This document shows positions 13,669 through 50,848 of a stretch of DNA of 64,000 nucleotides, piece after piece. A program made the position numbers and the translations under genes. The number at the start of each line of letters is the position of its first letter. Within the stretch, counting starts at the first letter, position 1. Under the pieces are notes generated by a model. It saw only the letters and a program-made list of their open reading frames with translations, did not search any database and was not told where the DNA came from. This DNA comes from Geminocystis sp. NIES-3709 (lineage in GTDB: Bacteria > Cyanobacteriota > Cyanobacteriia > Cyanobacteriales > Cyanobacteriaceae), in NCBI RefSeq assembly GCF_001548115.1, contig NZ_AP014821.1:3785262-3849261 (forward strand), given 5' to 3'.

Positions 13669-13971
13669 TTAAGTACATAATAAACCTAAATCTAATAAAG
13701 ACATTTGTTTTGCTTTTAATGGATATTTTAAAGTATAATCAATATTGAATAATTGACAAAGAAAACCAGCTAATAAAATGTCAAAATTAGGAATAGTTTT
13801 TATATCTATTTCTCTTATATCTCCAGCAGGTATTTCTTCAAAGTTATTAAAATATATTTCTCTAGCATGGGAATCAATTTTTGAACTAAATACACATTGA
13901 AAACCGACTTTTTCAAAACCTAATCTGAATCCTCCAATTCCTGCAAATAAATCAATAAATTTATAACTCAT
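13669..13971 (-). pseudogene. Truncated cytosine-5 DNA methyltransferase fragment
   Basis: 100 residues. The N terminus carries AdoMet motif I (FIDLFAGIGGFRLGFEKVGF) and a normal spacing to motif IV, but the catalytic PCQ loop reads AGFLCQLFNIDY, so the proline before the catalytic Cys is lost. All later motifs (VI, VIII, the target-recognition region, X) are missing, and the tail (LKAKQMSLLDLGLLCT) is unrelated. It is about a quarter of the family length, hence inactive. The frame ends 12 bases before the repeat end at 13633-13657. The intact, clearly different methyltransferase at 14030-15271 lies just upstream on the same strand, so this is a relic of another modification gene and not a fragment of that one. 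Confidence 0.8.
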
Positions 13972-14029
13972 TTTCTAATTCCTCTATAAGTTGATATTAA
14001 CAACTCTTTATAGTTCATTTTTATATTAA

Positions 14030-22413: not shown

Positions 22414-23571
22414 TTAACTTACATTGATTAATTCACCCTTATTCTTAAATTTTTTACTCCAATTAATTACTAAACCTCCTTCATTTAATAAGTAATTTAC
22501 TGTTTTTTCTAGCTGTTCTTTATTTTCAAAGTTTCTATAAGCTATATATTCCTTTGCCGAATGCCACACTAATTCTATTAAGTTATAATCTGGACTATAT
22601 ACCGGTAAATATTCTAGTCTTATATTCGGTAGATTTTTTTCTATTTTTTCTACTATTTCCTTTTTTTTATGGAAACTTGCGTTGTCTAATATTATGATTA
22701 TTTTCGGACCACATTCTTTAAAATCTTTTTCATCATTTCCCTTACTTACCCATTCATTTTTTATTTCTTCCCATAACTTTTTTAATTGTTCACAAAACGT
22801 TTCTGAATCACCTTTTTTTATTACAAAACATCTTCTTTTTTTATCCGAATATCTTATTCCTCCCATGATATTTACTCTTCCTCTTCTTCTTTCTCCCTTC
22901 ACCTTTTTTCTTTTTCCTTTTTTCGTCCATGTTTTTCTTCTTATCACCCTTAAACTAAAACCACATTCATGAGGGGCTGTGTGGCGAATTTAGTTCGCCA
23001 CTTTAAACGCCCCATCCCAAAACCATACTTGAACTAACTCAGGATTCTCTTTACCTATTTCTATGTAATGTTCTAATTTTTCTTTAAATGCTTTTCTTTG
23101 TTCTTGATTTTGTTTGTCTTCTAAACTATATTTTCCCCAAATATAACTATACTTTTTTCTTTTTAATATCCTCACTACTTGTGATTTGCTTAATTTAATT
23201 CCTGTTTCTTTTTCCAAATGTTCTGATAATCTTTGCCCCGTCCATCGACCAAAATCATATCCAAAATCTTCAGGATTTTTATCAACTACTTCTAATAATC
23301 TTTCAATATATTTATCCGTTGCTTTTGTTTGGTTTCCTTTTCTTCTTTTATCTTGCAATGAATCTACATTATTAGGATTACCATGAACTGCCCAGTAAGC
23401 CACCGTTTTGGGGGAACAACCCAAAAAAACTGCTATTTCTTGATAATTTTTACCATCATTCTCTAATAAAAATATTAAAATTCTTTCCCTGACTTCCGAT
23501 CTCTTTTCTATTTTTAAAGCATCTTGTAGATACTTTCTTTCTTCCTCTGACAAAAAATTTTTAGAAGGCAT
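22414..23571 (-). pseudogene. IS630 transposase interrupted in the catalytic domain
   Basis: The N-terminal piece (22990-23571, MPSKNFLSEEERKYLQDALK) carries the helix-turn-helix (YQEIAVFLGCSPKTVAYWAV) and ends at VWFWDG soon after the first catalytic Asp. The C-terminal piece (22414 to about 22970) resumes at HECGFSLRVIRRKTW and includes the second Asp (IIIILDNASFHKK) and the third acidic residue (YSPDYNLIELVW). The 45-bp insert between them keeps the frame but brings TAA at 22990-22992. Without the insert the join reads WFWDECGFSL, as normal for the family. It is non-functional unless the stop is read through. Confidence 0.9.
22971..23015. repeat. 45-bp palindromic insertion nested in the IS630 transposase
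   Basis: Core hairpin GTGGCGAA-TTTAG-TTCGCCAC (22981-23001) with outer arms GGGGC (22973-22977) and GCCCC (23009-23013). The trinucleotide CAT precedes it (22968-22970) and ends it (23013-23015), consistent with a short target duplication. Its 45-base length equals 15 codons. Confidence 0.8.
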
Positions 23572-27384: not shown

Positions 27385-30300
27385 ATGAGAAATTCTGATT
27401 TTAATGCGAAGAAGTTTCAAATAACTTTGACAAAATATAGTCTTTTTTTAGCCATCCTAACAGGTTCGATCGCTTTATCGGTCATTGTGGGATGGATTTT
27501 TCATGTTGAATCACTCATCAGAATTTCACCGAGTTTAGCCACCATGAAGTTTAATACAGCTTTATGCTTTATCTTGTTGAGTACTTCTAGTTTATTATCT
27601 TACAAATCTTTTGCTTTTCGAGGCTCTCAAAATAAAGTTTTACGATGGTTAATTAATTTCTTTATGGTTATTGTGTTAACTATTGCCATAATGACTTTAA
27701 TTGAGTATATCTTCAAATTAAATTTTGGCATTGATCAATTATTTGTTAAAGATTTTTTTGAAAATACAGGAGGTGTAAATGCGGTAAATGCACCTTTAGG
27801 AAGAATGGGATTTAATACCGCTTTTTGTTTTTTGATATTAGCATTCGTTAAATTATCTCTCAATTTGCCTCGTCCATTATATTTTAGTGCGCACATTCTT
27901 TCTTGTGTAGTTTTTTTAATCGCCTTACTTGCTTTTTTAGGATTAATTTACAACACCGCTTATTTTAATCGTGTTGAGTCTTATACTGACATGGCATTAC
28001 ATACGTCATTAAATTTTATGATCTTCACTATCAGTACTTTGTTTCTTTATCCCCATCGAGGAATAATGAGAATAATTACTAATAATACATTTGGTGGGAC
28101 GATCGCTAGAAATGTTTTACCGATGATTATTATATTATCTCCTCTTCTATGCGGATTAATTCTCATTGGCTATGAACAAGATCTTTATACCGTAGCTATG
28201 GGATTTAATCTTTTATCTATACTATATATCATAACCTTTGGAAGTATACTTTGGAGAAATTCCTATTTTTTAGATCGTATTGACTTTAAACGAAAACAAG
28301 CGGAAAATTTATTGTATAGAAAACAGCAACAATTAATCAAGCAAAATCAATCTTTAGCACAATTAAATCAAGAACTTCAACAAGAAATTAAGAAACGTCA
28401 AAAAGTAGAAAATATCCTGAGAGAAAGTGAGGCTCAATATTTAGCTATTATTGAAGATCAAACGGAGTTAATCTGTCGTTTTCTACCTGATGGTACTCTG
28501 TTATTTGTCAATCAAGCCTACTGTAATTATTATGGAATAAAGCGAGAAAAGGTGATTGGATCTAAATATCTTCCCGTCATTTATCCTGAAGATTTACCAA
28601 AAATAGATCGAATGCTTGATTCTCTTTCTTTAGAAAATCCTGTGGCAACCATTGAACATCGTGCTATTGTTCAAGGAGAAATTCGTTGGATGCAATGGGT
28701 AAATCGGGCAATTTTTGATGAAGAAGGAAATTTTATTGAGTTTCAATCTGTGGGGAGAGATATTCACGATCGAAAACAAGCAGAGATGCAATTGCAACAT
28801 CTTAATGAACAATTACAATCTCTTTTGGACAATGCACCATTATCTATCAGCTTATTTGATGAAAATGGTTGTTATTTAGAAGCTAACAACACTTTATGTA
28901 ATATCCTAAATTTATCATCAAAAAATATTATTGGCAAAACCTTTGAAGATTTATTTCCAGAATCCTTATGTCAGACTTTTAGAGAACGACTAGAAATTTT
29001 AAAAAATACTCTTGAGGCATTAGACATAGAAGATGAAATTATCATTGATAATCAAACTAAAATATTTCGTAGTGTTCTTTTTCCCGTAATGGAAGAAGAT
29101 AATACCGTTAAAATATTCTGGGCGATCGCTTATGATATTACGAAGCAAAAACAAATAGAAGCATCTTTAAAGACGAAAACTGAAGAATTAAATCGCTTCT
29201 TTTCCGTTGCCATTGATTTATTGGCGATCGCTAATACCGATGCTGATTTTTTGCGCTTAAATCGTCAATGGGAAAAAACTCTCGGTTATAGTATCGAAAA
29301 ACTAGAAGGATCTAAATTTTTCGATTATATCCATCCAGAAGACTTGGAAAAAACCGATAATGCCTTATCAATCCTGAAAAATCAACATATTGTTAACAAT
29401 TTTGTTAATCGTTATCGTTGTTATGATGGTTCTTATCGTTGGATTGAGTGGAGTTGTGTTCCAGTGGATAATTTGATTTATGCGGCGGCAAGGGATATTA
29501 CCGATCGTCTCAAATCAGAAAATATTTTAAGACAATATGAACGTATTGTTTCTGCCACCAATGATGCCATCGCTTTAGTTAAGCGTGATTATACCTATCA
29601 AGTAGTTAATCAAAACTATTTAGACTTACATGGAAAATCCTACTCTGAAGTTGTTAATCATCACATTGCCGAAATTTTAGATCCCGAAGTATATATTAAT
29701 GTCGTTCCCAAAGTAGAGTCCTGTTTGTCTGGTGAAACAATTCAGTTTGAGATGTGGAATGAACGGGATAAAAGTAATCCACAATACCTCAGTGTGACTT
29801 ATTCTCCTTCTTTTGAATCAGATCAAACTATCTCAGGAATAGTAGTAAGTATTCGGAATATTACACAATTAAAACAAATTGAACAACAAATAGAAAAATC
29901 ATTACGAGAAAAAGAAGTTTTGCTCAAAGAAATACATCATCGGGTTAAGAATAATTTACAAGTCATCAATAGCTTATTAAATTTGCAATCTCGATCGATA
30001 CAAGATTCTAGCATTCGCCTTAGATTTAAAGAAAGTCAAACTCGTATTCAGTCAATGGCTTTAATCCACGAACACCTTTACCAATCCAATAATCTTTCTG
30101 AAATAAACTTATCTAAATATATTAAAGAATTGATTAATGTTTTATTTAGTTCTTATCAAGTAAGTAATTCAACCATAGAGGTTAAAATCAAAATAGAACA
30201 AAATTTCTTTTTAGATATTGATTCTGCTCTACCCTGTGGTTTAATCATCAATGAATTAATTTCTAATGTGCTTAAATATGCTTTTGATGATAACCAAAAA

Positions 30301-30516
30301 GGAAAACTATTTATTGGACTTAGTTCCGATGATCAAGAAAATTTAATACTTACGATCGCTGATAATGGAAAAGGTTTACCTCCTGAATTAGACTGGGAAA
30401 AAACCACTACTTTAGGATTAAGATTAGTCAAAAATCTCACTAATCAACTGAGAGGAAATATTGTATTGGATAATGAACAAGGAACAAAATGGACAATAAC
30501 TTTAAATTGTTTATAA
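27385..30516 (+). CDS. Membrane-bound multi-PAS sensor histidine kinase
   Basis: 1043 residues. The N-terminal 290 residues hold about eight hydrophobic segments (integral-membrane sensor). After a coiled coil (about 300-345) come four PAS domains (about 345-470, 475-600, 605-720 and 725-840), some with PAC segments such as HRAIVQGEIRWMQWVNRAI. The catalytic part is of the HisKA_2 type with the phosphoacceptor in LLKEIHHRVKNNLQVINSLL, followed by an ATPase domain (NELISNVLKYAF N-box; IADNGKGLP G-box). It probably phosphorylates the REC-PAS-GGDEF protein encoded 49 bases downstream. The signal is unknown. The pair is bracketed by two inverted miniature elements. Confidence 0.88.
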   Translation: MRNSDFNAKKFQITLTKYSLFLAILTGSIALSVIVGWIFHVESLIRISPSLATMKFNTALCFILLSTSSLLSYKSFAFRGSQNKVLRWLINFFMVIVLTIAIMTLIEYIFKLNFGIDQLFVKDFFENTGGVNAVNAPLGRMGFNTAFCFLILAFVKLSLNLPRPLYFSAHILSCVVFLIALLAFLGLIYNTAYFNRVESYTDMALHTSLNFMIFTISTLFLYPHRGIMRIITNNTFGGTIARNVLPMIIILSPLLCGLILIGYEQDLYTVAMGFNLLSILYIITFGSILWRNSYFLDRIDFKRKQAENLLYRKQQQLIKQNQSLAQLNQELQQEIKKRQKVENILRESEAQYLAIIEDQTELICRFLPDGTLLFVNQAYCNYYGIKREKVIGSKYLPVIYPEDLPKIDRMLDSLSLENPVATIEHRAIVQGEIRWMQWVNRAIFDEEGNFIEFQSVGRDIHDRKQAEMQLQHLNEQLQSLLDNAPLSISLFDENGCYLEANNTLCNILNLSSKNIIGKTFEDLFPESLCQTFRERLEILKNTLEALDIEDEIIIDNQTKIFRSVLFPVMEEDNTVKIFWAIAYDITKQKQIEASLKTKTEELNRFFSVAIDLLAIANTDADFLRLNRQWEKTLGYSIEKLEGSKFFDYIHPEDLEKTDNALSILKNQHIVNNFVNRYRCYDGSYRWIEWSCVPVDNLIYAAARDITDRLKSENILRQYERIVSATNDAIALVKRDYTYQVVNQNYLDLHGKSYSEVVNHHIAEILDPEVYINVVPKVESCLSGETIQFEMWNERDKSNPQYLSVTYSPSFESDQTISGIVVSIRNITQLKQIEQQIEKSLREKEVLLKEIHHRVKNNLQVINSLLNLQSRSIQDSSIRLRFKESQTRIQSMALIHEHLYQSNNLSEINLSKYIKELINVLFSSYQVSNSTIEVKIKIEQNFFLDIDSALPCGLIINELISNVLKYAFDDNQKGKLFIGLSSDDQENLILTIADNGKGLPPELDWEKTTTLGLRLVKNLTNQLRGNIVLDNEQGTKWTITLNCL

Positions 30517-30565
30517 TTGAACTATAACAAAGAATAATTTCGCCCACTGATGGAATAGTTTTTTA

Positions 30566-31903
30566 ATGGCAAACAATCGAATGAAAATATTGGTAGTTGA
30601 AGATGAAAGTATTGTTGCCCAAGACTTGCAAATGATTTTAGAAGATTTGGGCTATAATGTGCCTATGTTTGTCGATTCCGGAGAAAAAGCGATCGAAAAA
30701 GCCCTAGAAATTAAACCCAACTTGATCTTAATGGATATAAGATTAATTGGAGAAATGGATGGTATTACAGCGGCACAAAAAATTATTGAAACTTTAGATA
30801 TTCCCATTATTTATTTAACTGCTCACGGAGATGAAAAAACTTTAGAAAGAGCAAAAACAACTCAACCTTTTGGTTATATTATTAAACCTTTTACAGAACA
30901 AGAATTACGCATCGCCGCAGAAATAGCCCTTCATAAGCATCAAATCGATCGAAAATTAAAAGAAAATGCCCAGTGGTTAGCAACAATACTAAATAGTATC
31001 AGTGATGGAGTAATTGTGACAAATAATAATGGTAATGTAACCTTTCTTAATCCTTCCGCAGAGAAAATGACAGGTTGGGTTTTATCTGACGCAGTAAATC
31101 AGTCCATAAACTCGGTTTTTAACGTTATTGATGAGAATACAAAAAATAGTCTTGATTCGGTTTTGATGAATGTGATTAAATCAGGAAAATTGTGTAAACT
31201 CCCCGAACAAACATCTCTAATTAATAAACATGGCATACAAATTCCCATTTCTGACAGTATTTCACCTATTGGCAATACTACACATATTAACACTGTCAAA
31301 GATTTTATGGGAGAATCTTCAGGTACTGTTTTCGTCTTTCGAGATGACACGGAAAGAAGATTAATCAATCAACAATTAAGACATCAAGCCTTTTATGATG
31401 GTTTAACAAATTTAGCAAATCGAGTTTGGTTTACTGAAAGACTTAGTGATGCTATTCAAAGATTTCAACGCAATCGAGAATATCTATTTGCAGTTTTATT
31501 TTTAGATTTAGATAGCTTTAAGATTGTTAATGATACTTTAGGACATTGGACTGGAGATCAATTACTGATTGGCGTGGCAAATCGTTTGTTAAAATTAGTA
31601 CGCCCGATGGATACTGTTGCTCGTTTTGGTGGAGATGAGTTTGCTATTTTATTGGAGAATATTTCTAATATTGAAGAGGTTTGTCATATTGCACAAAGAA
31701 TTCAGAGAGATATAAGTACTTTTTTTATGATTAGGGAAAATAGAGTATTTACAAATATAAGTATAGGTATTGTTTTAAGTTCCATGATTTACGACTCTGT
31801 GGAAAAGGTGATGGAAGATGCTGATATTGCCATGTATCAAGCTAAATCGAAAGGAAAAGGATGTTATGAAATATTTACTAGAAGCGAAACAATTAGGGGT
31901 TAG
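30566..31903 (+). CDS. Response regulator with PAS and diguanylate cyclase domains
   Basis: 445 residues: receiver domain 5-120 with phospho-Asp57 (LILMDIRLIGEMDG) and acidic pocket VEDES; PAS domain about 140-265; GGDEF domain about 275-440 with an intact active site RFGGDEFAILLEN. The product-inhibition I-site RxxD (RPMD) sits five residues before GGDEF. It should make cyclic di-GMP from two GTP when phosphorylated and be feedback-controlled. No EAL domain. It is the second gene of a two-gene unit with the sensor kinase at 27385 and a second MITE follows 38 bases after its stop. Confidence 0.9.
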   Translation: MANNRMKILVVEDESIVAQDLQMILEDLGYNVPMFVDSGEKAIEKALEIKPNLILMDIRLIGEMDGITAAQKIIETLDIPIIYLTAHGDEKTLERAKTTQPFGYIIKPFTEQELRIAAEIALHKHQIDRKLKENAQWLATILNSISDGVIVTNNNGNVTFLNPSAEKMTGWVLSDAVNQSINSVFNVIDENTKNSLDSVLMNVIKSGKLCKLPEQTSLINKHGIQIPISDSISPIGNTTHINTVKDFMGESSGTVFVFRDDTERRLINQQLRHQAFYDGLTNLANRVWFTERLSDAIQRFQRNREYLFAVLFLDLDSFKIVNDTLGHWTGDQLLIGVANRLLKLVRPMDTVARFGGDEFAILLENISNIEEVCHIAQRIQRDISTFFMIRENRVFTNISIGIVLSSMIYDSVEKVMEDADIAMYQAKSKGKGCYEIFTRSETIRG

Positions 31904-33711: not shown

Positions 33712-34077
33712 TTAGTTAATTTCTAGTTTTAACCCGGGTAAAAACTTTTGTAAATTTTTCAAAGATTTTTTTTGCCAAGGGATTTGTTCTGAACCTAAAA
33801 TAATTAATTGTACTCTTTTATTTTTTCGTAAACCAATTACAAATTTTGATAACATACTAATACCAGAACTATTTAAAAAAGATAATTCTTTTAAATCGAT
33901 CGTAATATTTTCTGGATCATTTTCTGTAGTTAATTCTAATAGATCTTTAATAGGAGCATATTCTTGAGGGCCTCCTAAACTTAACTCTCCTGCAAATTTT
34001 ACCGTCATATTTTGAGGATATAATTCTATTAAATAATCATCTCCTTTTACCGTTTGATTTTCCATATTAATCATCAT
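33712..34077 (-). CDS. STAS-domain anti-sigma-factor-antagonist-like protein
   Basis: 121 residues. The STAS fold has the conserved phosphoacceptor loop ITIDLKELSFLNSSGISMLS (Ser-Ser-Gly), followed by a helix and NKRVQLIILGSEQ. Proteins of this type bind an ATPase-type partner unless phosphorylated and are reset by a PP2C/SpoIIE phosphatase. The gene directly upstream (34111-34707) encodes such an ATPase-like protein, and a SpoIIE-type phosphatase lies at 38734, so a complete partner-switching set could exist here. Start: ATG at 34077 or the Met four codons later (MENQTVKGDD). Confidence 0.8.
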   Translation of the reverse strand: MMINMENQTVKGDDYLIELYPQNMTVKFAGELSLGGPQEYAPIKDLLELTTENDPENITIDLKELSFLNSSGISMLSKFVIGLRKNKRVQLIILGSEQIPWQKKSLKNLQKFLPGLKLEIN

Positions 34078-34110
34078 TTAATTATTAACTATAGATCGGG
34101 AATTATAAAC

Positions 34111-34707
34111 TTAAACTTGTATTTGCACCATAGTAGTGACTAGATTAAAATCATAGGAATTAGTAGATTCGATCGTTTCAAACTTCCATCCTATTTTACC
34201 AGAATAATCATTAATTATAGTCAAAAAACCTAAACCAGAACATTCATCTTCAGGCTCATTAGAGGCACTTTTTTCTAATTGTTCAATATAAAGAGATTCC
34301 GTATCTTCAGAAGATAATCTAGCGATAAAATCTTGTAGTTTCTTCATATCATTAGACTTAATACTATTGGTAGCAAAAATTACTGCTATTAAATGATTAT
34401 TTTCTAAAAAATGAACTCCAAATTGAATTTGAGAATTACTATTTTCATCATTATATTTCATCGCATTTTCTAGCAACTCATTAGCCACATAAGAAACGGC
34501 AGATTGACTATCTTTAATGCGTTTTTGTTGTGCCATATCTCCATCATCTAAAGGCAAAAAAGTAGTAAAATAATCAGCTATAAAATAAGCAGATAAACGA
34601 TTATTTCGCCAACGTTTTTTAAGGGGAATAGAGGAAGGAGTAAAAGTCAATTCTAAAGAATCTTTTTCCGGGGGAAATTGTTCAATAAATTCACCAAAAA
34701 TTTGCAT
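34111..34707 (-). CDS. GHKL ATPase-like protein of a partner-switching pair
   Basis: 198 residues. An N-box-like helix AVSYVANELLENAMKYNDEN and a later glycine turn with DECSGLGFLTIINDYSGKIG indicate a histidine-kinase-type ATP-binding fold without any dimerisation or receiver domain. That is the layout of anti-sigma/switch kinases acting on STAS partners. The downstream STAS gene starts 33 bases beyond its stop, so the two are one transcription unit. No sigma factor gene adjoins. It could act on motility, biofilm or carbon control as in the Synechocystis icfG-type system, but that is only an analogy. Confidence 0.7.
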   Translation of the reverse strand: MQIFGEFIEQFPPEKDSLELTFTPSSIPLKKRWRNNRLSAYFIADYFTTFLPLDDGDMAQQKRIKDSQSAVSYVANELLENAMKYNDENSNSQIQFGVHFLENNHLIAVIFATNSIKSNDMKKLQDFIARLSSEDTESLYIEQLEKSASNEPEDECSGLGFLTIINDYSGKIGWKFETIESTNSYDFNLVTTMVQIQV

Positions 34708-38733: not shown

Positions 38734-41232
38734 CTATTTCTGCTTTAATAATAATAAAGTAATATCATCAGTAATTTTATTTAAACCGATAAATTTTTTG
38801 ACATCATTAATAATAATATCTTTAATACTTTCTATGTCTAAATGCCAATTTTGACTAACTACATTACAAAGTCGATCGATACCATATTGAACTTTATCAA
38901 CATTTCTAGCTTCGGTAATTCCATCAGTATAAAGGACAATTCCATCCCCAGAATTAAGATTAATTAATATATGATCAATAAACTCTGTTATATCATAATC
39001 TAAACCAATAGGTAAACCTAAATCGATCGTGTCAATTAATTCTACTTTTCCTCCTTTTCTCACCAAAATAACTTCTTCATGTTGTCCACTAATACATAGT
39101 TGATTATTTTGATAATTAATAATTGCTAAAGAGAGATTTTTCTCTGATTTCATCCTTTGAATATTGTAATAAATTGCTCGATTAAGAGTATCTAAAAAAG
39201 TGACTGGATTTTTTTCTCCCTGTTGTTTTAAAGTACAAATAGCCGCTTGTATCATTACCATTAACATTCCGCTTTCTAAACCATGGCCTGTTACATCTCC
39301 AATGCCAATAGTGATAACATCATCTAATTCTAAAACGTCATAATAATCTCCTCCTAATTCGTCCATCGGTTCCATATAACCAGCTATATCTAAAGACTTA
39401 ATTTTTTTTAATTCTTCAATTTTAGGTAATATTAATTGTTGCATTTCGTGGAGAATTTTTAACTTACCACTTAATAAGATATTTTCTGAGCATAAACGAG
39501 TATTTAAAAGACTAATTTCTTGATTTGCTTTAGCTAATTCTTGAGTTCTAATTTCGACTATTTTTTCCAGATTTTTCTCTAATAATTTTCTCTCCGTTAT
39601 TTCTGTTTGAATAGATAAATATTGTAAAATTTTACCTCTATCATCTGTTAATGGTACGATCGTAGTGTCAACCCAGTAATAATGATCATTTTTCGCCTTA
39701 TTTTTAATTTCACCTCGCCATACATGGCCATGAGAAATGGTTGACCACATTTTGTCATAAAAATTTTTATTATGGCAACCAGACTTTAATTTATTAGTTT
39801 TTTCTCCAATTAATTCTTGTTCAGAATAACCAGAAATTTCTTTTAATTTTTCATTACAATAAATGATTTTTCCACCCGGATCAGTTAAAGTTACAATGGC
39901 AGATTGATCGATGGCATATTTGAGATTAGAAACGTCTTGTAAAGAAGTATTCAAATTATCAAAAAAAGCCTTTAACATCTCACTCATGTGATTAAAAGAT
40001 TCCGCCAAAATATCCAATTCTTCAATACCTTGTAAAGGAACTTTTTGATTAAATTCTCCTTCCGAAATATTTTGAGATGCTGTTTTTAATTTGATAATTG
40101 GTTGAATAATTAATTTAGAAGTAATTACACCACTAGAAATAGCAAAAATCAACGCAATTACCGATAAACTAATAGTTATTTTTGTATTTTCCTGAATAAA
40201 AGTCATAAAATCTGACTCAGGAATTGCTACCACTGCAAACCAATTAATTCCATAATTATTACTAATATTAACAACTTTAATTAAGAGATTATTTTTATTA
40301 GTAGATAATTGAAATTCCTGAATTTTTATATCATGTTCTGAAAAAACATTTTTTGAGTTTAAAAACTCAATTATTTGTCGAATGTCTATATTTGGATTAT
40401 TAATAGCAGGAGTTAAAAAAAATCTCAGATCTTTATCTTGATTGTTATATTTATTTCTCAAGGAATCAGCAATTAATAAACCATTTCGATCGATAATAAA
40501 AGCAAAACCAGTTTTACCGATTTTTAATTGACTTAAAAAGGAACTTATATCTGTTAAATCTCGATGATTAGTTAAAACACCTAAAAAGTTATTCTTTTCA
40601 TCATAAATTTTTTTACTTGTAAAAGTAATAAGTTGTTGATTAGAAATATCTTTATAAGGTTGAAGCCACTGATTTTGATAATTTTTAAGAGTATTTTGAT
40701 ACCAAAAAAGTTGGCGAGAATCAAAATTAGAATCATCTTGACGGCGTAACAGTTTAATAATATTTCCTTGAGAGTCAACAGAATAAGTTAATAAACTATT
40801 AGACTCATTTCTATCTAAAATTTTTAACTCAAAATCTTGGGAAGATTTTTTGATAATTTCTATATAATTTCCTTGTTTTTCATCAGCAAAAGCAATTTTA
40901 TCAATATTATTCGTCCATTGATATTGAGAAATAAAATAACGTCCTAATAGTGTTAAATCTTGAAATAATAAAGGATCAATAATAACTGCATTTCTATTAA
41001 CTTGATTTAATGCTGTTCCTTCAATAAAATAATTTTCTAAATAATTATCAATTTTATAAGCAATTTCACTGTTTAAATCAGTTGTAATTTCATTTAAAGC
41101 CCTTTTTGCACTACGATAAGATAAATAGGTAACAATAGCTAAAATCGCCAAAATCTGACACAAAAAAGGCCACACTAATAAAGTGCGCAAATTTGTCCGA
41201 GGATAGTTTTTTTTGACGAGTTTCATTAACAT
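38734..41232 (-). CDS. Membrane sensor SpoIIE/PP2C-type serine phosphatase
   Basis: 832 residues. Transmembrane helix at about 20-43, an extracytoplasmic double-Cache-like domain (about 45-335), a second helix (about 345-372), HAMP (IIQPIIKLKTASQNISEGEF), PAS-PAC (about 435-555, YAIDQSAIVTLTDPGGKIIY), a coiled coil, and a C-terminal SpoIIE phosphatase with metal-binding motifs MDELGGDYYDV, IGIGDVTGHGLESGM and GDGIVLYTDGITEARN. It should dephosphorylate an STAS-type protein in response to an external cue. The STAS/ATPase pair at 33712-34707 is the only such candidate nearby. The CobH-like gene follows it, 76 bases downstream on the same strand. Confidence 0.9.
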   Translation of the reverse strand: MLMKLVKKNYPRTNLRTLLVWPFLCQILAILAIVTYLSYRSAKRALNEITTDLNSEIAYKIDNYLENYFIEGTALNQVNRNAVIIDPLLFQDLTLLGRYFISQYQWTNNIDKIAFADEKQGNYIEIIKKSSQDFELKILDRNESNSLLTYSVDSQGNIIKLLRRQDDSNFDSRQLFWYQNTLKNYQNQWLQPYKDISNQQLITFTSKKIYDEKNNFLGVLTNHRDLTDISSFLSQLKIGKTGFAFIIDRNGLLIADSLRNKYNNQDKDLRFFLTPAINNPNIDIRQIIEFLNSKNVFSEHDIKIQEFQLSTNKNNLLIKVVNISNNYGINWFAVVAIPESDFMTFIQENTKITISLSVIALIFAISSGVITSKLIIQPIIKLKTASQNISEGEFNQKVPLQGIEELDILAESFNHMSEMLKAFFDNLNTSLQDVSNLKYAIDQSAIVTLTDPGGKIIYCNEKLKEISGYSEQELIGEKTNKLKSGCHNKNFYDKMWSTISHGHVWRGEIKNKAKNDHYYWVDTTIVPLTDDRGKILQYLSIQTEITERKLLEKNLEKIVEIRTQELAKANQEISLLNTRLCSENILLSGKLKILHEMQQLILPKIEELKKIKSLDIAGYMEPMDELGGDYYDVLELDDVITIGIGDVTGHGLESGMLMVMIQAAICTLKQQGEKNPVTFLDTLNRAIYYNIQRMKSEKNLSLAIINYQNNQLCISGQHEEVILVRKGGKVELIDTIDLGLPIGLDYDITEFIDHILINLNSGDGIVLYTDGITEARNVDKVQYGIDRLCNVVSQNWHLDIESIKDIIINDVKKFIGLNKITDDITLLLLKQK

Positions 41233-43422: not shown

Positions 43423-45597
43423 TTGACTGTGAATAATTTTGCCAACGGTAGTATTTTAATTGTTGACGATGCACCCGATAATCTGCGCCTTCTCCGAGAT
43501 ACTTTACAAGAACAAGGGTATAAAGTTCGTTCCTGCACTACGGGAAGTATGGCTTTAAGAGCTGCGTGTTCAGCCCCAACTGATTTAATTTTACTTGATA
43601 TTAAGTTACCTGACTATGATGGTTATGAAATTTGTCGTCAATTAAAAGCTGATGAGAAAACTGCTCCTATTCCTATCATTTTTTTAAGTGGACTTAGTAA
43701 TACTTTTGATAAAATTCAAGGATTTACCGTTGGTGGGGCCGACTATATCACTAAACCATTTCAAATTGAAGAAGTATTAGCACGGGTGGAAACTCAGTTA
43801 TCTATCCAACGACTGCAACAAAGTCTTGAGGAAAAAAATCTGCATCTTACGGAGGAAATCGAAAAACATAAACTAACCCAAGAAGCCCTTTTTTTTGAAA
43901 AAGAATTAGCTCAGGTAACTCTCAAGTCTATTGGAGATGCTGTAATTACCACTGATGCAAAAGGTTATGTTACTTATCTTAATCCGATCGCTGAATCTCT
44001 TACAGGTTGGAATGAACAAGAAGTTCAGGGATTGCATTTATTTGAAGTTTTTAGAATTGTTAATGAATTTACTAAAAATCCAGTACAAAATTCTATTTTT
44101 GAGGTTTTAGATCAAATTAAAATAGTTAATCGGACTCAAGATACTATTTTGATTAAACGTAATGGCACAGAAATTCCTATTGATGACTCTGCCGCCCCTA
44201 TTCAAGATAATCATGGTAATATCATTGGTGCAGTAATTGTGTTTCGGGATATAACAGAAGTTCGTAATTTCACCAGTCAACTTTCTTGGCAAGCCAGTCA
44301 TGATTTTCTCACAGGTTTAATTAATCGTTCTCAATTTGAAGAAGAACTGGAAATAGCGCTTAATTCTGTCAAAAATGAGCGTCAACATCATGTTTTGTGT
44401 TATTTAGACTTAGATCAATTTAAAGTTATCAATGATACTTGTGGTCATGTGGCTGGAGATGAATTATTGCGTCAAGTAGCAAAAATATTACAAGGACGAA
44501 TTCGTGACAGTGATACTTTAGCACGTTTAGGAGGAGATGAATTTGCTTTTTTATTACATCAATGCTCAGTGGAAAAAGCCATTGAAATAGCGGAAATTTC
44601 TAGGGAAATGATTGAAAAGTTCCGTTTTTCTTGGAATAATAAGACTTTTAATATTGGTGTGAGTATCGGGGTAGTAGCGATCGATTATCATATGAATGAT
44701 AAAAATACTGTTATGGGTATAGCTGATGCTGTTTGTTATGCCGCTAAAGGTAGAGGGCGTAACTGTGTCCAAGTATATCAAGCTAATGATTATGAATTAC
44801 TTAGACAACGCAGAGAAAGACAATGGGTAATCCAAATTCATCAAGCCTTAGAAGAAAATCGTTTTTGTCTCTATTATCAAAAAGTTATTCCCGTTCAACA
44901 GGGTAAGCCCATTTATTATGAAATTTTATTGCGGTTACTAAGTGAAAAAGGTCAATTAGTTGCTCCCGGAGTTTTTATGCCATCAGCAGAACGTTATGAA
45001 TTAATGCCGGCGATCGATCGTTGGGTGATTAGTACTTTTTTAAGTAAATATCACGATTACTATCATCAACATTGTCATCATCATAATTATTCTCATAATT
45101 TATATGCTCTTAATATTTCAGGAGCAAGTATTAACAACGATCATTTTCTGGATTTTTTACAGCAACAATTAGAACAAGCAGAAATACCTATTGATACCAT
45201 TTGTTTTGAAATTACAGAAAGTACAGCGATCGGCAATTTTGACCAAGCTTTGAAGTTAATTAATCAACTCAAACAATTAGGTTGTCGTTTTGCTATTGAT
45301 GATTTTGGCCACGGCATGAACTCTTTTGACTATATTAAACATTTTCCCGTTGATTATTTAAAAATTGATGGTAGTTTTGTCAAAAATCTGGTTAATAGTG
45401 ACATTGATCATGCGATCGTTGAAAGTTTTAATCGTATTGGTCATGTCATGAATTTGCAAACCATAGCGGAGTTTGTGGAAAATAAGGTTATCCTACAAGA
45501 ACTAGAACTGATGGGAATAGATTACCTTCAAGGCTATGAAATTGCCAAACCAGTTCCTTTTGAGTTTGAATATACGATCGAGATTAACAAAAATTAA
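43423..45597 (+). CDS. REC-PAS-GGDEF-EAL cyclic di-GMP regulator
   Basis: 724 residues. Receiver domain 8-125 (phospho-Asp59 in LILLDIKLPDYDG), PAS about 165-285, GGDEF about 295-460 with LARLGGDEFAFLL and the I-site RDSD five residues before, and EAL about 475-720. The EAL motif reads YEILLRL, but the other catalytic residues are present (NISGASINND, FEITEST, FAIDDFGHGMNSF, LKIDGSF, IDYLQGYEIAKPVP). It can therefore be a cyclase, a phosphodiesterase or both. Start: TTG at 43423 or GTG at 43429; GGAG at 43415 does not decide. It precedes the KaiC-like gene by 86 bases on the same strand. Confidence 0.9.
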   Translation: MTVNNFANGSILIVDDAPDNLRLLRDTLQEQGYKVRSCTTGSMALRAACSAPTDLILLDIKLPDYDGYEICRQLKADEKTAPIPIIFLSGLSNTFDKIQGFTVGGADYITKPFQIEEVLARVETQLSIQRLQQSLEEKNLHLTEEIEKHKLTQEALFFEKELAQVTLKSIGDAVITTDAKGYVTYLNPIAESLTGWNEQEVQGLHLFEVFRIVNEFTKNPVQNSIFEVLDQIKIVNRTQDTILIKRNGTEIPIDDSAAPIQDNHGNIIGAVIVFRDITEVRNFTSQLSWQASHDFLTGLINRSQFEEELEIALNSVKNERQHHVLCYLDLDQFKVINDTCGHVAGDELLRQVAKILQGRIRDSDTLARLGGDEFAFLLHQCSVEKAIEIAEISREMIEKFRFSWNNKTFNIGVSIGVVAIDYHMNDKNTVMGIADAVCYAAKGRGRNCVQVYQANDYELLRQRRERQWVIQIHQALEENRFCLYYQKVIPVQQGKPIYYEILLRLLSEKGQLVAPGVFMPSAERYELMPAIDRWVISTFLSKYHDYYHQHCHHHNYSHNLYALNISGASINNDHFLDFLQQQLEQAEIPIDTICFEITESTAIGNFDQALKLINQLKQLGCRFAIDDFGHGMNSFDYIKHFPVDYLKIDGSFVKNLVNSDIDHAIVESFNRIGHVMNLQTIAEFVENKVILQELELMGIDYLQGYEIAKPVPFEFEYTIEINKN

Positions 45598-45734
45598 TGA
45601 AAAAAGACCCCTTTCAACAATAAACAATGAACAATGTACAATTGATAGTTACCTCTCTTTACCGATAGTTTTATGGTTCATCCTTGGTAAAGTATTTAAT
45701 TCATAGTAACCCCAAAACAACATTTCAAAATATT

Positions 45735-47426
45735 ATGGAAGACTACCAAAATCAAGAATTGTCGAAAAGTCCTACAGGAATTCAAGGACTCGATGAAATT
45801 ACGGGAGGCGGTTTACCCAAAGGCAGACCAACTTTAATCTGTGGATCAGCCGGTTGTGGTAAAACTTTATTCGGAGTAGAATTTCTCGTGCGAGGTGCCA
45901 CTTTATATGATGAACCCGGTATTTTAATGACTTTTGAAGAAAGTCCCGCAGAAATAACAGAGAATGTGGCTTCTTTGGGATGGAATTTGAATCAATTAAT
46001 CGCCGAAGGAAAAATGTTAATTGATCATGTCTATATAGATCCTAGTGAAATTCAAGAAACAGGAGAATATGATCTCGAAGCCTTATTTATTCGTCTCGGT
46101 TACGGGATTAAAAAAATCGGTGCTAAACGGGTGATGTTAGATACCATTGAAGTTTTATTTTCTGGCTTATCCAATGCCAATATTGTTCGATTAGAATTAC
46201 GCCGTTTATTTCACTGGTTAAAATCTCAGGGTGTTACCGCTATTATCACTGGTGAGAGAGGAGATAATACTTTAACCCGTCAAGGTTTAGAAGAATATGT
46301 TTCTGACTGTGTAATTAAACTAGAACAAAAAACCGTCGAAGAAATTGCCACCAGAACAGTACAAGTTATTAAATATCGAGGTTCTCGTCACAGCAATAAC
46401 GAATATCCTTTTTTAATAGAAGAAACAGGGGTTTCTGTATTACCCATAACTTCTTTAACCTTAAATCATGAAGTTTCTAACGATCGAATCTCCACAGGAA
46501 TTAAAGCACTAGATGATATGTTTGGTGGGAAAGGTTACTATCGAGGTAGTAGTATTTTAATCACGGGTAAAGCAGGAACAGGAAAATCCACTCTTGCTGG
46601 TCATTTTGCCCAAGCCACCTGTTTACGAGGAGAAAGATGTTTATATTTGGCCACAGAAGAATCACCTCAACAAATTCTCCGTAATATCGCCTCTATCGGA
46701 GTCCATTTATCTACCTATGTGGATCAAGGTTTATTGCAATTTGATGCTGTACGCCCCAGTAATTACAATTTAGAAATGCGCTTGTTCAAAATTCATCGTT
46801 GGGTACAAGAGTTTAAACCAAAAGCAATAATTATTGATCCCATGAGTAACTTAATTTTAATGGGAAGTATGATACAAACTAAAAATTTTGCCATGCGTTT
46901 AATTGATTATCTCAAAAGTAAGCAAATCACCCTCTTATTTACAGATTTAACCCCGGGTGATGTTCAGCAGGAACAAACCGAAATTGGTGTTTCGTCTCTT
47001 ATGGATACTTGGATAGAACTGCAAACTCTTAAAGTTAACGGAGAACGAAATCGTATTCTTTATGTTTTGAAATCGAGGGGAATGAGTCACTCAAACCAAG
47101 TTCGAGAATTTATTATTACCAATGAGGGTGTAAACTTGATAGAAGTTTATTTGGGTGAGGGCAGAGTCTTAACAGGAACAGAACGTATTAATCAAGAATT
47201 ACAGGAACAATTAACTATCAATAAAAGAAAACATAATCTTGAGCTGAAAAAACGACAATTTGAACGGGAGCAACATTTGTTACAAGCTCAAATAACGGCT
47301 TTGCAAATGCAATTATCCAATCAAAATGAAGAATTAGCTTTGATGATCGAAGAAGAAGCAGAACATCAAAAAATGATTCTGGAAAACCGAAAATTTATGA
47401 AAGAATTACGTCATCTCAATCCATAA
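45735..47426 (+). CDS. KaiC-like two-domain RecA-type ATPase (non-canonical)
   Basis: About 563 residues. Two tandem KaiC domains: CI (about 10-240) with Walker A LICGSAGCGKTLFGVEFLVR and catalytic EE in MTFEESP; CII (about 250-480) with ITGKAGTGKSTLAGHF and LATEESP. The segment matching the KaiC phosphosite loop reads TEIGVSSLMDT, so it has hydroxyls at the positions of T426, S431 and T432 (T, S, S). A C-terminal coiled coil (about 485-560, LELKKRQFEREQHLLQAQIT) replaces the canonical A-loop tail that KaiA binds. An upstream ATG at 45684 would add 17 residues; ATG at 45735 (MEDYQNQELSKSPTGIQGLD) fits the family. It is followed by two kaiB-like genes and a hybrid kinase, with no kaiA. Confidence 0.92.
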   Translation: MEDYQNQELSKSPTGIQGLDEITGGGLPKGRPTLICGSAGCGKTLFGVEFLVRGATLYDEPGILMTFEESPAEITENVASLGWNLNQLIAEGKMLIDHVYIDPSEIQETGEYDLEALFIRLGYGIKKIGAKRVMLDTIEVLFSGLSNANIVRLELRRLFHWLKSQGVTAIITGERGDNTLTRQGLEEYVSDCVIKLEQKTVEEIATRTVQVIKYRGSRHSNNEYPFLIEETGVSVLPITSLTLNHEVSNDRISTGIKALDDMFGGKGYYRGSSILITGKAGTGKSTLAGHFAQATCLRGERCLYLATEESPQQILRNIASIGVHLSTYVDQGLLQFDAVRPSNYNLEMRLFKIHRWVQEFKPKAIIIDPMSNLILMGSMIQTKNFAMRLIDYLKSKQITLLFTDLTPGDVQQEQTEIGVSSLMDTWIELQTLKVNGERNRILYVLKSRGMSHSNQVREFIITNEGVNLIEVYLGEGRVLTGTERINQELQEQLTINKRKHNLELKKRQFEREQHLLQAQITALQMQLSNQNEELALMIEEEAEHQKMILENRKFMKELRHLNP

Positions 47427-47449
47427 CAAAAATGTATTAGGAGAAAAAA

Positions 47450-47776
47450 ATGGTAGATAATTTATCAAACACTGAAACCTCAAAAAGTTCTGCAACTTGG
47501 CAACTAAAATTGTATGTAGCTGGACAAACCCCTAAATCTCTGGTTGCTTTTTCTAATTTAAAAAAGATTTGTGAGGAGTATCTTCAAGGAGAATATACTA
47601 TTGAAATTATTGATTTAACTCAACAACCTTCTTTGGCTGGAGATGATGATATTGTTGCTTTACCCACCCTAGTAAGAAAGTTACCATCCCCTATTAAAAA
47701 AATTATTGGGGATTTATCGAATACCGAAAAAGTTTTGGTAGGATTACAAATAGTTTCTTTGACTGGTCAAACATAA
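47450..47776 (+). CDS. KaiB-like protein, first of two
   Basis: 108 residues. After about 15 leader residues it follows the KaiB thioredoxin-like pattern: [60 protein letters not shown] and [10 protein letters not shown]. The cis-proline region and the GDLS-EKVL segment are strongly KaiB-like. It should bind the neighbouring KaiC-like ATPase, 23 bases upstream. It shares the same architecture with the next gene and probably arose by tandem duplication. Confidence 0.92.
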
Positions 47777-47799
47777 GGAAATATATAAATTTAGATAAA

Positions 47800-48150
47800 A
47801 TGATTGAACCAGAAAAATTAAACGAAACTACAACTGATCTATTTGAGCAAAGTCTTTCGGAATTGCCAGAAAAGTGCTATTTACTGCGACTTTATATTGC
47901 AGGAACAACGATGCAATCTCTTAATGCTTTGCAAAACATCAAAAGAATTTGTGAAGAACATCTCAAAGGACGATATGAGTTAGAAGTTATTGACATCTAT
48001 CAAGAAACAGAGTTAATGATCGAGGAAAATATTATTGCTGTCCCTACTTTACTTAAAAAATTACCTTTACCTTTACAAACATTAATAGGCAATTTATCAG
48101 ATACGGAAAAAGTTTTAATTGGTCTTGATCTTCTTCCTAAAAATATTTAA
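47800..48150 (+). CDS. KaiB-like protein, second of two
   Basis: 116 residues with a longer acidic N-terminal leader (MIEPEKLNETTTDLFEQSLS) before the KaiB core: YLLRLYIAGTTMQSLNALQN, VIDIYQETELMIEENIIAVP, TLLKKLPLPLQTLIGNLSDT, EKVLIGLDLLP. It differs from its neighbour at many core positions, so the two paralogues have diverged and may bind different KaiC states or different partners. 23 bases separate it from the first copy. It is followed by a 380-base gap. Confidence 0.92.
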   Translation: MIEPEKLNETTTDLFEQSLSELPEKCYLLRLYIAGTTMQSLNALQNIKRICEEHLKGRYELEVIDIYQETELMIEENIIAVPTLLKKLPLPLQTLIGNLSDTEKVLIGLDLLPKNI

Positions 48151-48517
48151 TTTAGAGATAAAATAATTATTAACGATAGAAAACAGTATTAGGAATTAAT
48201 TTAAAAGGTAGGAGATAGAAGATAGTAGTAATAATTGATTTAAACATTAGTCAAATTGATATTAGATAATTATTTACGCTTATTTAATTCTTTTGTTAAG
48301 GTAAAATGTGCTTATCTACCACTCTTAAACCCTTATTAATAATAAGGTTTCTAACATCGAACTCAGCTGAAGTAGCTTAAACTCAGATGTTGCATCAGTA
48401 CAAAAAAACCAACGAAACAAAACAGGAAAAATTAATTCTTGTCAGTTTTCCCTTTTTCCTTTCGTCACTGAACTGAGAACTTATGATCAAGGTGCAAAAT
48501 CTAAATTAAAAATATAA
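48151..48517. other. 367-base gap before the hybrid kinase
   Basis: No gene found. An imperfect AT-rich inverted repeat lies at about 48327-48350 (AAACCCTTATT / AATAAGGTTT) without a following T-run, so it is not a clear terminator. The gap leaves open whether the kinase shares the kai transcript or has its own promoter. Confidence 0.4.
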
Positions 48518-48529
48518 TTGAGAGGGAAA

Positions 48530-50848
48530 ATGATGAATGATTCAGCAGCAACGATCGAAAATTTACACCAAGAAGTTAAGACTGTACGTCAATCATTAGC
48601 CGATACTCTCGATAAATTAAAAATAGCAGAAGAAACTTTACAAGCAATTCATTCTGGTGAAGTGGATGCGGTAGTGGTTGCCACTAAACAGGGAATGAAA
48701 ATTTTTACCCTCCAAGGAGCAGATCATATTTATCAACGTTTGGTAGAACAAATGGGAGAAGGGGCAGCGACAATTTCCAATGAAGGCTTAATTTTATACA
48801 GTAATCAGAGATTATCAGAACTTTTACATTGTCCTTTAAAAAATGTTATCGGCTCTGAATTACAAAATTTTATTGCTTTAAAGGATCGAAAAGTATTTTC
48901 ATTGCTCTTACAACACCTTCAACCAGAGGAAACTTTCACGATCGAACTATCTTTAATTAGCGCGACAGAAAATAGAGAAGTACCCGTTCAATTATCCCTG
49001 AAACAATTTAACATAGACAAACTTTTAGTTAATAGTATTATTATTACTGATATTACAGAATCGAAAACAAAAGAAGCGACTAAACTTACTCAGATTCTCA
49101 ACAGTGCAATTGTCGTTATTTACAACTTTCGTATTTTTATTGATGGTACTTTAGAAATTGATTCTTGGGGTGGGGGTACAGAAAAAATTTTTGGCTATAG
49201 TTTAGATGTCGTCAAAGGAGATTCAAACTTGATTTGGAGGAATATTTTATCCGAAGATCGAGAAAATGCGATCACCTCATTAATCAAAAATATTCAAAGT
49301 GGTAATTCTGGGGTAATTGAATATCGTTTTTGTCATGGTGATGGCACAACTCATTGGCTTAACTCCAATCATGTCGGACAATGGGATGAAGTTCAAGACT
49401 GTTGGACTGGAATTGACATTATCACTGATATTACCGAAAAAAAACAACTAGAAAAACAGTTCTACCATGCTCAACGGTTAGAGAGCTTAGGAACTTTAGC
49501 CAGTGGCATAGCCCATGATTTTAATAATATTCTTACCCCCATTTTGGGAGTTAGTCAATTATTACCCTTAACATTTCCTAATCTTGATGAAAAAGGACAA
49601 CGATTATTAAATCTTCTTTCTGGTAGTGCTAAACGTGGAGTTGATTTAGTCAAACAAATACTGCTTTTTAGTCGAGCCACAGAAGGGCAATGTGTAGCCT
49701 TACAATTAGGATATGTACTTTTAGAGTTAATCGGTATTGCTCAACAGACATTTCCTAAATCAATCAATATTTCAGCGGAAATCCCTACAAGAGAATTATG
49801 GACAATCTTAGCCGATGCGACTCAAATGCACCAAGTATTTATGAATCTGATGATTAATGCGAGGGATGCTATGTCAGAGGGAGGAAATTTGACTATCATC
49901 GCCGAAAATTATGAATTAAATGAACATGATGCTAACCTCAACTTAGAGGCAAAAGCAGGTTCTTATGTAGTTGTCACGATTGAAGATACAGGTATGGGTA
50001 TTCCTTCAGATTTATTAGAACGAATTTTTGATCCCTTTTTTACCACAAAAGATGTTGGTAAAGGCACAGGATTAGGATTATCAACGGTAACAGGGCTTGT
50101 TAAAAATCATGACGGTTTTGTAAAAGTTTATAGTGAATTGGGCAAAGGTGCAAAATTTCAGGTCTTTTTACCAGCTATAGAAGGAGAAGTGAGCCTAACA
50201 ATCTCAGAAGAAATATTACAAAAAGGTAACGGAGAGTTAATTTTAATTGTTGATGATGAAACATCTATTCAAGAAGTAACCAAAATTTCTTTGGAAAACT
50301 ATAATTACAAAACGATCGTTGCTAATGACGGCATCGAAGCAATTTCTTTTTATGAGAAACATCAACAGGAAATCAGTGTTATCTTAATGGATATGATGAT
50401 GCCTAATTTAGACGGTATTACGGCAATTCGTAGCTTAAAAAAGATTAACCCTCAAGTTAAAATTATTGCAAGTAGCGGACTCATAGCTAACCGTGAATTG
50501 GCTTTAGAAGCTAATGTCAGCACATTTTTGTCGAAACCTTATACCGTTAAACAATTATTGCAAACTTTAACGGAGATAATAGGGGGGAAATTAGAAAATA
50601 TCCATCAAACTTCACTCAAATCGGAAACACATTTTTCAGATCCTGAAATCTTAAAAGAGGCTTTAAGAAATATGCCTCCTGAATGGTTAAAACAAATGTA
50701 CGATGCAACTTATTGTGTTGATGCCGATGTGATGTTGGAATTAATTGCACAAATACCCCCTGAAAAGATAACTTTGGCTAATGCACTGAAAGATTTAGTA
50801 GATGATTTTAATACAGATATTATTATGAATTTAATTGGAGTCTGCTGA
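48530..50848 (+). CDS. PAS-containing hybrid histidine kinase
   Basis: About 772 residues, cytosolic. An N-terminal coiled coil and the segment LQAIHSGEVDAVVV...GMKIFTLQGADHIY, as seen in kinases beside kaiC-like genes, lead to PAS domains (about 85-190 and 195-310), HisKA with the phosphoacceptor in LASGIAHDFNNILTPILGVS, an ATPase domain (LMINARDAMSEG; EDTGMGIP; GTGLGLSTV), a receiver domain (about 575-690, phospho-Asp in VILMDMMMPNLDG) and a C-terminal helical tail. ATG at 48530 follows GAGAGGG. A TTG four codons upstream is unlikely. It probably takes its signal from, or reports through, the Kai-like proteins. Confidence 0.9.
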   Translation: MMNDSAATIENLHQEVKTVRQSLADTLDKLKIAEETLQAIHSGEVDAVVVATKQGMKIFTLQGADHIYQRLVEQMGEGAATISNEGLILYSNQRLSELLHCPLKNVIGSELQNFIALKDRKVFSLLLQHLQPEETFTIELSLISATENREVPVQLSLKQFNIDKLLVNSIIITDITESKTKEATKLTQILNSAIVVIYNFRIFIDGTLEIDSWGGGTEKIFGYSLDVVKGDSNLIWRNILSEDRENAITSLIKNIQSGNSGVIEYRFCHGDGTTHWLNSNHVGQWDEVQDCWTGIDIITDITEKKQLEKQFYHAQRLESLGTLASGIAHDFNNILTPILGVSQLLPLTFPNLDEKGQRLLNLLSGSAKRGVDLVKQILLFSRATEGQCVALQLGYVLLELIGIAQQTFPKSINISAEIPTRELWTILADATQMHQVFMNLMINARDAMSEGGNLTIIAENYELNEHDANLNLEAKAGSYVVVTIEDTGMGIPSDLLERIFDPFFTTKDVGKGTGLGLSTVTGLVKNHDGFVKVYSELGKGAKFQVFLPAIEGEVSLTISEEILQKGNGELILIVDDETSIQEVTKISLENYNYKTIVANDGIEAISFYEKHQQEISVILMDMMMPNLDGITAIRSLKKINPQVKIIASSGLIANRELALEANVSTFLSKPYTVKQLLQTLTEIIGGKLENIHQTSLKSETHFSDPEILKEALRNMPPEWLKQMYDATYCVDADVMLELIAQIPPEKITLANALKDLVDDFNTDIIMNLIGVC

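Follow-up and report, generated by a model that had tools for sequence, protein, structure and literature searches.

A kaiC2 locus in Geminocystis with two KaiB families and a kinase N-terminal module that is a candidate receiver of the Kai state

The window, i.e., the whole 64,000-nucleotide stretch of DNA that was analysed, comes from Geminocystis sp. NIES-3709, a cyanobacterium with a 4.43 Mb genome. The locus studied here consists of five open reading frames, all on the + strand, and Pfam assigned to them the domains that an earlier reading of the DNA (the sequence-only reading) had described. The genes and the features between and within them are as follows:

43423-45597, + strand: REC-PAS-GGDEF-EAL protein, an optional neighbour (Pfam EAL 9.7e-64, GGDEF 2.7e-45).
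45684-47426, + strand: kaiC2, a two-domain KaiC with Ser437-Ser438 and a C-terminal extension of coiled-coil type (Pfam KaiC in two stretches, 1.3e-113).
47450-47776, + strand: KaiB-alpha, of the "first" family, in the clade of R. sphaeroides KaiB (Pfam KaiB 8.6e-28, tree).
47800-48150, + strand: KaiB-beta, of the "second" family (Pfam KaiB 2.1e-23, tree).
48205-48366, + strand: short multicopy repeat, in the gap that separates KaiB-beta from the kinase (gap positions 55-216).
48377-48516, + strand: second short multicopy repeat in the same gap (gap positions 227-366).
48518-50848, + strand: hybrid histidine kinase, N-module-PAS-HisKA-HATPase-REC (Pfam PAS-PAS-HisKA-HATPase-REC).
48527-49129, + strand: N-module of the kinase as modelled, with a long helix, a beta-hairpin, a PAS fold and an exit helix (profile, predicted structure).

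Translation of kaiC2 probably starts at ATG 45735 (residue 18), which is the ORF start in two relatives, and that of the kinase at ATG 48530 or 48533, as in its relatives. The 367-nt gap before the kinase is mostly made up of two kinds of short repeat, with 42 matches in the genome including itself. The gap was considered as a conserved operon boundary and rejected, because KaiB and kinase genes abut in two other loci (L040 and L045) and a gap filled by multicopy repeats need not be such a boundary. A promoter and terminator scan gave 36 promoter-like sites, compared with 34.5 expected by chance, and an inverted-repeat search of the gap gave nothing of use.

Two genes upstream of the locus, the opposite strand carries a Cache-HAMP-PAS-SpoIIE phosphatase gene (38734-41232), near ORFs at 33712-34707 that we take to be STAS-like and anti-sigma-like. 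Further upstream, a REC-PAS-GGDEF gene follows a large, presumably PAS-rich and kinase-like ORF (span 27385-31903), possibly as a further kinase-c-di-GMP pair. A transposase-like gene, presumably of IS630 type, is split in two ORFs (22414-23571), of which the 193-residue one has helix-turn-helix domains. At 13669-15271 lie two ORFs that we read as methyltransferase-like: a fragment of 100 residues, of the cytosine type, and a neighbour of 413 residues.

The absence of kaiA noted earlier was borne out for the five genes, none of which was matched by the Pfam KaiA model. Outside the window, the same genome has kaiA-kaiB-kaiC, with KaiA identified by Pfam, and a SasA-like kinase that includes a KaiB domain; it also encodes another KaiC with two domains (506 residues) and a KaiB adjoining a REC-domain protein (loci L002, L003, L006 and L008 for the whole set). 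This last pair resembles kaiA3-kaiB3 by gene order and by the description of the latter in PMC11372060; the Pfam KaiA model matched neither of its members.

Both halves of the KaiC-like protein had been described as having intact Walker motifs and EE pairs, and this was confirmed: Walker A is located at residues 54 and 295, and the EE pairs in TFEESP (83) and ATEESP (323). The Ser-Ser phosphosite at residues 437-438 aligned with the SS of R. sphaeroides KaiC (8dba), which was matched with 599 bits over query residues 26-567, i.e., into its tail, while the match to S. elongatus KaiC (1tf7) scored 336 bits. Judged by its sequence, the protein is KaiC2, because it has the Ser-Ser phosphosites and a C-terminal extension aligning with the R. 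sphaeroides KaiC tail. It has a Walker A motif and a catalytic EE pair in each KaiC domain, two serines at the phosphosite and a ~50-residue C-terminal extension; the Ser-Ser pair and the long tail are described as marks of the KaiC2 clade (PMC10076222, PMC5520375). With Ser-Ser instead of Ser-Thr, and with no KaiA match among the five genes, the locus does not correspond to a canonical KaiABC oscillator.

The tail of R. sphaeroides KaiC is described as a dodecamer-forming coiled coil that joins two hexamers (PMC10076222), and by homology the tail here would be a coiled coil as well. The sequence-only reading had presented this tail as unusual. Its presence is supported by the alignment to 8dba, but it is not special to this locus, as it marks the KaiC2 group according to the same source, and we rejected it as a novelty because it is known from R. 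sphaeroides. The R. sphaeroides system is described as an hourglass that the ATP/ADP ratio drives, in which KaiB binds the CI domain of KaiC (PMC10076222). KaiA-independent autophosphorylation may likewise be a property of this KaiC2, if carried over from R. sphaeroides by homology.

The two small proteins downstream had been read as a tandem pair of diverged KaiB-like proteins. The tandem pair stands, and "KaiB-like" proved too cautious, as both are clear KaiBs by Pfam (96.3 and 82.3 bits, with a cut-off of 27). They are 50% identical over 86 residues, and the best solved-structure match of KaiB-alpha is R. sphaeroides KaiB (8fwj). In a tree of 129 KaiBs, which is based on few columns, includes several long branches and has an unsettled bootstrap, first and second KaiBs formed the two sides of one split with 100/100 support that recurred in 200/200 bootstrap trees. 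The labels first and second needed a single change on this tree, which covers many phyla, archaea included. A recent tandem duplication of kaiB was rejected on the basis of this deep split. R. sphaeroides KaiB was placed among the first KaiBs. Since KaiB1 and KaiB3 of the host genome fell on the second side, the second KaiBs do not necessarily form a clade. In a tree restricted to the host's order, the labels first, second and single together needed 8 changes, and the first KaiBs, four single KaiBs and R. sphaeroides KaiB formed a group with 100/98 support.

Profiles built from KaiBs of the order separated the two families in each of the 65 loci that have exactly two KaiBs, with the first KaiB preferring the first-KaiB profile and the second KaiB the second-KaiB profile; this result is partly circular for the cyanobacterial loci and not for those of other phyla. 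First KaiBs are marked by Gln16, Lys19, Leu46 and Arg66 (at least 91% of 81; S. elongatus numbering) and second KaiBs by Tyr47, Gln48 and Lys66 (at least 91% of 85). The structure model of KaiB-beta (pLDDT 59, 11 sequences) was too low in confidence to tell fold states apart.

The first ~190 residues of the kinase constitute the N-module. In its structure model (pLDDT 88), a helix (residues 4-43) is followed by a hairpin (48-61), a PAS fold that extends to residue 175, and an exit helix; the hairpin was modelled at low confidence (block means 58-74). No Pfam match with E ≤ 0.001 starts before residue 72, and residues 1-192 gave neither a KaiB nor a receiver match in Pfam. The kinase is thus not of SasA type, as it has a PAS fold instead of a KaiB domain. 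All 50 Foldseek matches listed for the model were PAS/LOV proteins or proteins containing such domains.

The sequence-only reading had proposed that the five genes form a joint Kai-phosphorelay unit. A search of 291 genomes of the order located kaiC2 in 36 of them, at 41 places (E ≤ 1e-120), and the 40 places outside the window were fetched with their flanks. Two KaiBs follow kaiC2 at 20 of these 40 places and in the window (21/41), and one KaiB at the other 20. An N-module lies downstream at 19 of the 21 two-KaiB places (18/20 and the window) and, within the fetched flank, at none of the 20 single-KaiB places (Fisher p 9e-10, a value that ignores the relatedness of the genomes). The two tandem loci without an N-module were L042 and L060, the latter with ~2 kb left on its contig. 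Therefore, kaiC2, the two kaiBs and the N-module are not scattered in the relatives examined, and the proposed unit holds for these four genes, which recur together in bacteria and archaea; the case for the c-di-GMP gene is weaker. In one annotated case, kaiC, kaiB, a KaiB family protein and a response regulator are encoded on a Pararhizobium plasmid, where each of the last three genes lies no more than 32 nt from the preceding gene or overlaps it. The four-gene unit looks new.

Such a recurrence could also arise if the genes were merely inherited and transcribed together, with products that do not touch each other and no domain dedicated to coupling. Horizontal transfer fits the patchy spread of kaiC2 (36/291 genomes of the order; in the genus, 3 of the 5 genomes drawn), its 77% identity both to the nearest congener and to another family, and the presence of the Kai gene set on a conjugative plasmid. 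This explanation seems to us very unlikely, because transfer as a set gives no reason for one domain in particular to stay beside kaiB. The homology in kaiC2 loci spans residues 1-186 of the window kinase; in 12 loci of the order the similarity (36-56% identity) stops at residue 183-200, beyond which there are only weaker matches (24-29%) or none, i.e., the beginning of the kinase alone is well conserved and the remainder exchanged.

The linkage of the N-module to kaiB was followed beyond kaiC2. Profile A1 was built from nineteen N-modules; like a second profile, A2, it drew on KaiB-linked genes alone, so that such genes are at an advantage among the strong matches. A1 gave 17 strong matches (E ≤ 1.6e-47; the next were 6.3e-17 or worse) in 15 genomes reached through the loci, one each in 13 genomes and two each in 2. 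Within the order, the N-module was found at 28 places in 27 of 291 genomes (E ≤ 1e-25), and all 28 lie directly after kaiB in the fetched loci (19 tandem loci and 9 elsewhere).

This draw from the order and two further group draws did not require KaiB and are a fairer test than the selected loci described below; they applied a first-look filter and E cut-offs. Among Gammaproteobacteria, drawn as the class of a Pseudomonas genome, KaiB occurs in 15 of 185 genomes and a strong N-module (E ≤ 1.2e-39; next 1.5e-18) in 6. All six begin 23-78 nt after a KaiB domain; in one of them (G370), a degraded case, both matches contain a stop. Two weak matches (L171 and L172), restricted to the PAS part and left out of the six, had no KaiB nearby in the fetched DNA. 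Among Alphaproteobacteria, drawn as the class of a Bradyrhizobium genome and searched with A2, KaiB occurs in 9 of 210 genomes and a strong N-module (E ≤ 1.4e-59; next 9.1e-17) in 3, in each case located 36-74 nt behind a KaiB domain that is the second of a pair. Ten weak matches were left out of this count, and none of them shares a contig with a KaiB found in the draw.

A wider sample was formed by the 79 named loci of one scan with A1, the best 79 of 233 relatives of a KaiB-linked query, a selection that itself favours KaiB linkage. They come from many cyanobacteria, Pseudomonadota, "Deltaproteobacteria", Bacteroidota, Acidobacteriota, Verrucomicrobiota, Planctomycetota, Chloroflexota, a Nitrospiria bin and Syntrophomonadaceae, and among archaea from Methanoculleus, Methanoperedens and a Bathyarchaeote. 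On the same strand, the 1.5 kb upstream contain at least two KaiB ORFs in 66 of these loci, one in six and none in seven; the median distance to the last KaiB domain is 25 nt. Three of the seven loci without an upstream KaiB lie on contigs cut within 405 nt; in L114 and L115, kaiB lies one or two genes further upstream instead of adjoining the N-module. L111, from Methanoculleus sediminis, has two N-module genes for one kaiC-kaiB-kaiB set, the second lying beside the opposite-strand kaiC-kaiB-kaiB-N-module set. L161 carries an N-module with no kai gene in the fetched stretches.

In L167 and L168 (Gammaproteobacteria), the N-module follows one alpha-type KaiB, so KaiB-beta is not always needed. 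Planktothrix-type loci (L103, L108, L110, L112, L113, L118, L174-L181 and L185) keep KaiB and an N-module-PAS-GGDEF protein without kaiC2 in the fetched stretch, in some of them with KaiB-beta as the only KaiB before the N-module; their KaiBs may listen to another KaiC. In G065, KaiB-beta and the N-module lie far from kaiC2 and an alpha-type KaiB. No natural KaiB-N-module fusion was found in three ORF sets. Across 52 loci, the partial distance correlation of the N-module was 0.23 with KaiB-beta (0.09 to 0.33) and 0.005 with KaiB-alpha (-0.10 to 0.18); the values with KaiC were 0.58 for the N-module and 0.42 for KaiB-alpha, and the KaiC alignment is the longest of the set, which by itself raises its correlations. 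We regard KaiB-beta as an adaptor to the N-module as a lead, not a finding.

The proteins headed by the N-module differ in their remaining domains. A profile of the HisKA-HATPase region of the window kinase matched the N-module gene in 50 of the 79 loci; GGDEF-EAL was present in 8 and GGDEF in 6, and 15 had no match in the small profile set. Pfam was applied to nine of these 15 and identified HisKA_2 (L098, L100), HisKA_3 (L136, L145, L148, L163), a sigma-54 activator (L161, L165) and GAF (L116); of the other six, three are cut at the locus edge. Because the outputs behind it vary, we argue from these sequences that the N-module is the input side of output proteins. It could instead act as an input sensor, the PAS domain of the kinase sensing oxygen, redox or another signal and informing KaiC2. 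The N-module does contain a PAS fold, and PMC10931921 reads the PAS kinase adjoining kaiBC in these two species, R. sphaeroides and R. rubrum, as a possible oxygen input. We consider this unlikely, since the same N-module heads GGDEF-EAL and GGDEF proteins, three kinase types and a sigma-54 activator, and such varied enzymes acting back on KaiC would be a less simple arrangement than KaiC acting on them.

The upstream gene had been seen as part of the unit, and the main output could be this GGDEF-EAL protein, driven by phosphotransfer from the kinase. The motifs for this are present: the HDFNN His box in the kinase, the I-site RxxD, GGDEF and EAL-domain motifs (EIL in place of EAL) in the neighbour, and the receiver Asp in both, with meanings that we assume from general knowledge. 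Moreover, a full-length relative of 59-72% identity adjoins kaiC2 in another Geminocystis (G117), in G007 (family f8) and in an uncultured Oscillatoriales (G140), and one of 59% identity does so in two Pseudanabaena, in either orientation. The complete same-strand order of five genes was found in the window, G117, G007 and Pseudanabaena mucicola. However, at least 18 of 291 genomes of the order have a full-length relative (match >900 bits, 3 candidates scored per genome, some contigs cut), and among these 18 it lies beside kaiC2 in 4 (one divergent), is unlinked to kaiC2 in 3, and occurs without a kaiC2 match in 11. Conversely, it was not found beside kaiC2 in 32 of the 36 kaiC2 genomes within the same limits. 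We would expect adjacency in four of the seven genomes with both genes to exceed chance, by impression rather than by calculation. The GGDEF-EAL gene is therefore an optional neighbour and no core part of the unit, and the upstream protein as main output is doubtful. A link from Kai to c-di-GMP is supported in relatives in another form, namely by sequences in which the N-module is fused to GGDEF or GGDEF-EAL (14/79 loci).

Our best reading is that KaiC2, KaiB and the second KaiB gate swappable outputs through the N-module, presumably by binding it. It is fairly likely that the locus encodes a timer or switch built on KaiC2, independent of KaiA and equipped with an output of its own. KaiC2 would autophosphorylate and, by analogy with R. 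sphaeroides, read the ATP/ADP ratio, and KaiB-alpha would bind KaiC2 and favour its dephosphorylation. Coupling would be provided by KaiB-beta and the kinase N-module: the Kai assembly would bind or release the helix-hairpin-PAS module and so gate the kinase, which would phosphorylate its own receiver and perhaps also the REC domain of the adjacent GGDEF-EAL protein. More tentatively, the N-module could be a dedicated receiver of the KaiBC state, an output-domain class unlike SasA and CikA that is carried in bacteria and archaea on kinases, c-di-GMP enzymes and sigma-54 activators; KaiB-alpha might then set KaiC2, and KaiB-beta hand the KaiC2 state to the N-module, in an ancient portable cassette. 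If true, many bacteria and some archaea would share a cassette linking an energy-reading timer to kinases, c-di-GMP or transcription. For the question of how KaiC2-type systems signal, the locus names a candidate domain that is small enough to purify, and the second KaiB offers a separate, testable role.

In the canonical clock, a Kai complex is read by the histidine kinases SasA and CikA, the latter having a pseudo-receiver. SasA has a KaiB-like N-terminal domain, as seen in the genome's own SasA, whereas the kinase described here has the helix-hairpin-PAS N-module. The RtaNt kinases, as described in PMC3164672, have an N-terminal domain weakly similar to REC and SasA and belong to a genome without kaiB, in contrast to the present genome with its kaiB genes. 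The same source reports a histidine kinase or GGDEF/EAL gene immediately downstream of almost all clustered kaiC-kaiB pairs outside cyanobacteria; kaiC and kaiB with a PAS kinase are described in R. palustris (PMC4794148) and Bradyrhizobium (PMC3899966), and PAS kinases adjoin kaiBC in R. rubrum and R. sphaeroides (PMC10931921). The clusters in the first three of these sources share the general neighbourhood of our locus, but are non-cyanobacterial, and their descriptions, as far as covered, name neither two KaiB families nor an N-terminal domain shared in a kaiB-bearing group; the searched portion of the literature gave no account of either. Among the closest known systems is the R. sphaeroides KaiBC hourglass (8dba, 8fwi, 8fwj; PMC10076222), which shares the Ser-Ser KaiC, the long tail and the KaiB-alpha clade and does not need KaiA. 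Its description there, as far as covered, deals with one KaiB and no output protein and mentions neither a histidine kinase nor an operon, whereas the locus here adds a second KaiB family and an N-module output. Synechocystis KaiC2-KaiB2 likewise represents the KaiC2 group in a cyanobacterium with KaiABC (PMC8258377, PMC11372060). There, SasA is reported to interact with KaiC1 alone and with neither KaiC2 nor KaiC3, and the existence of further output elements is suspected (PMC8258377); judged from genomes other than that of Synechocystis, the N-module is a candidate for the KaiC2 output element. Its placement after kaiB suggests how hourglass-type timers pass on their signal.
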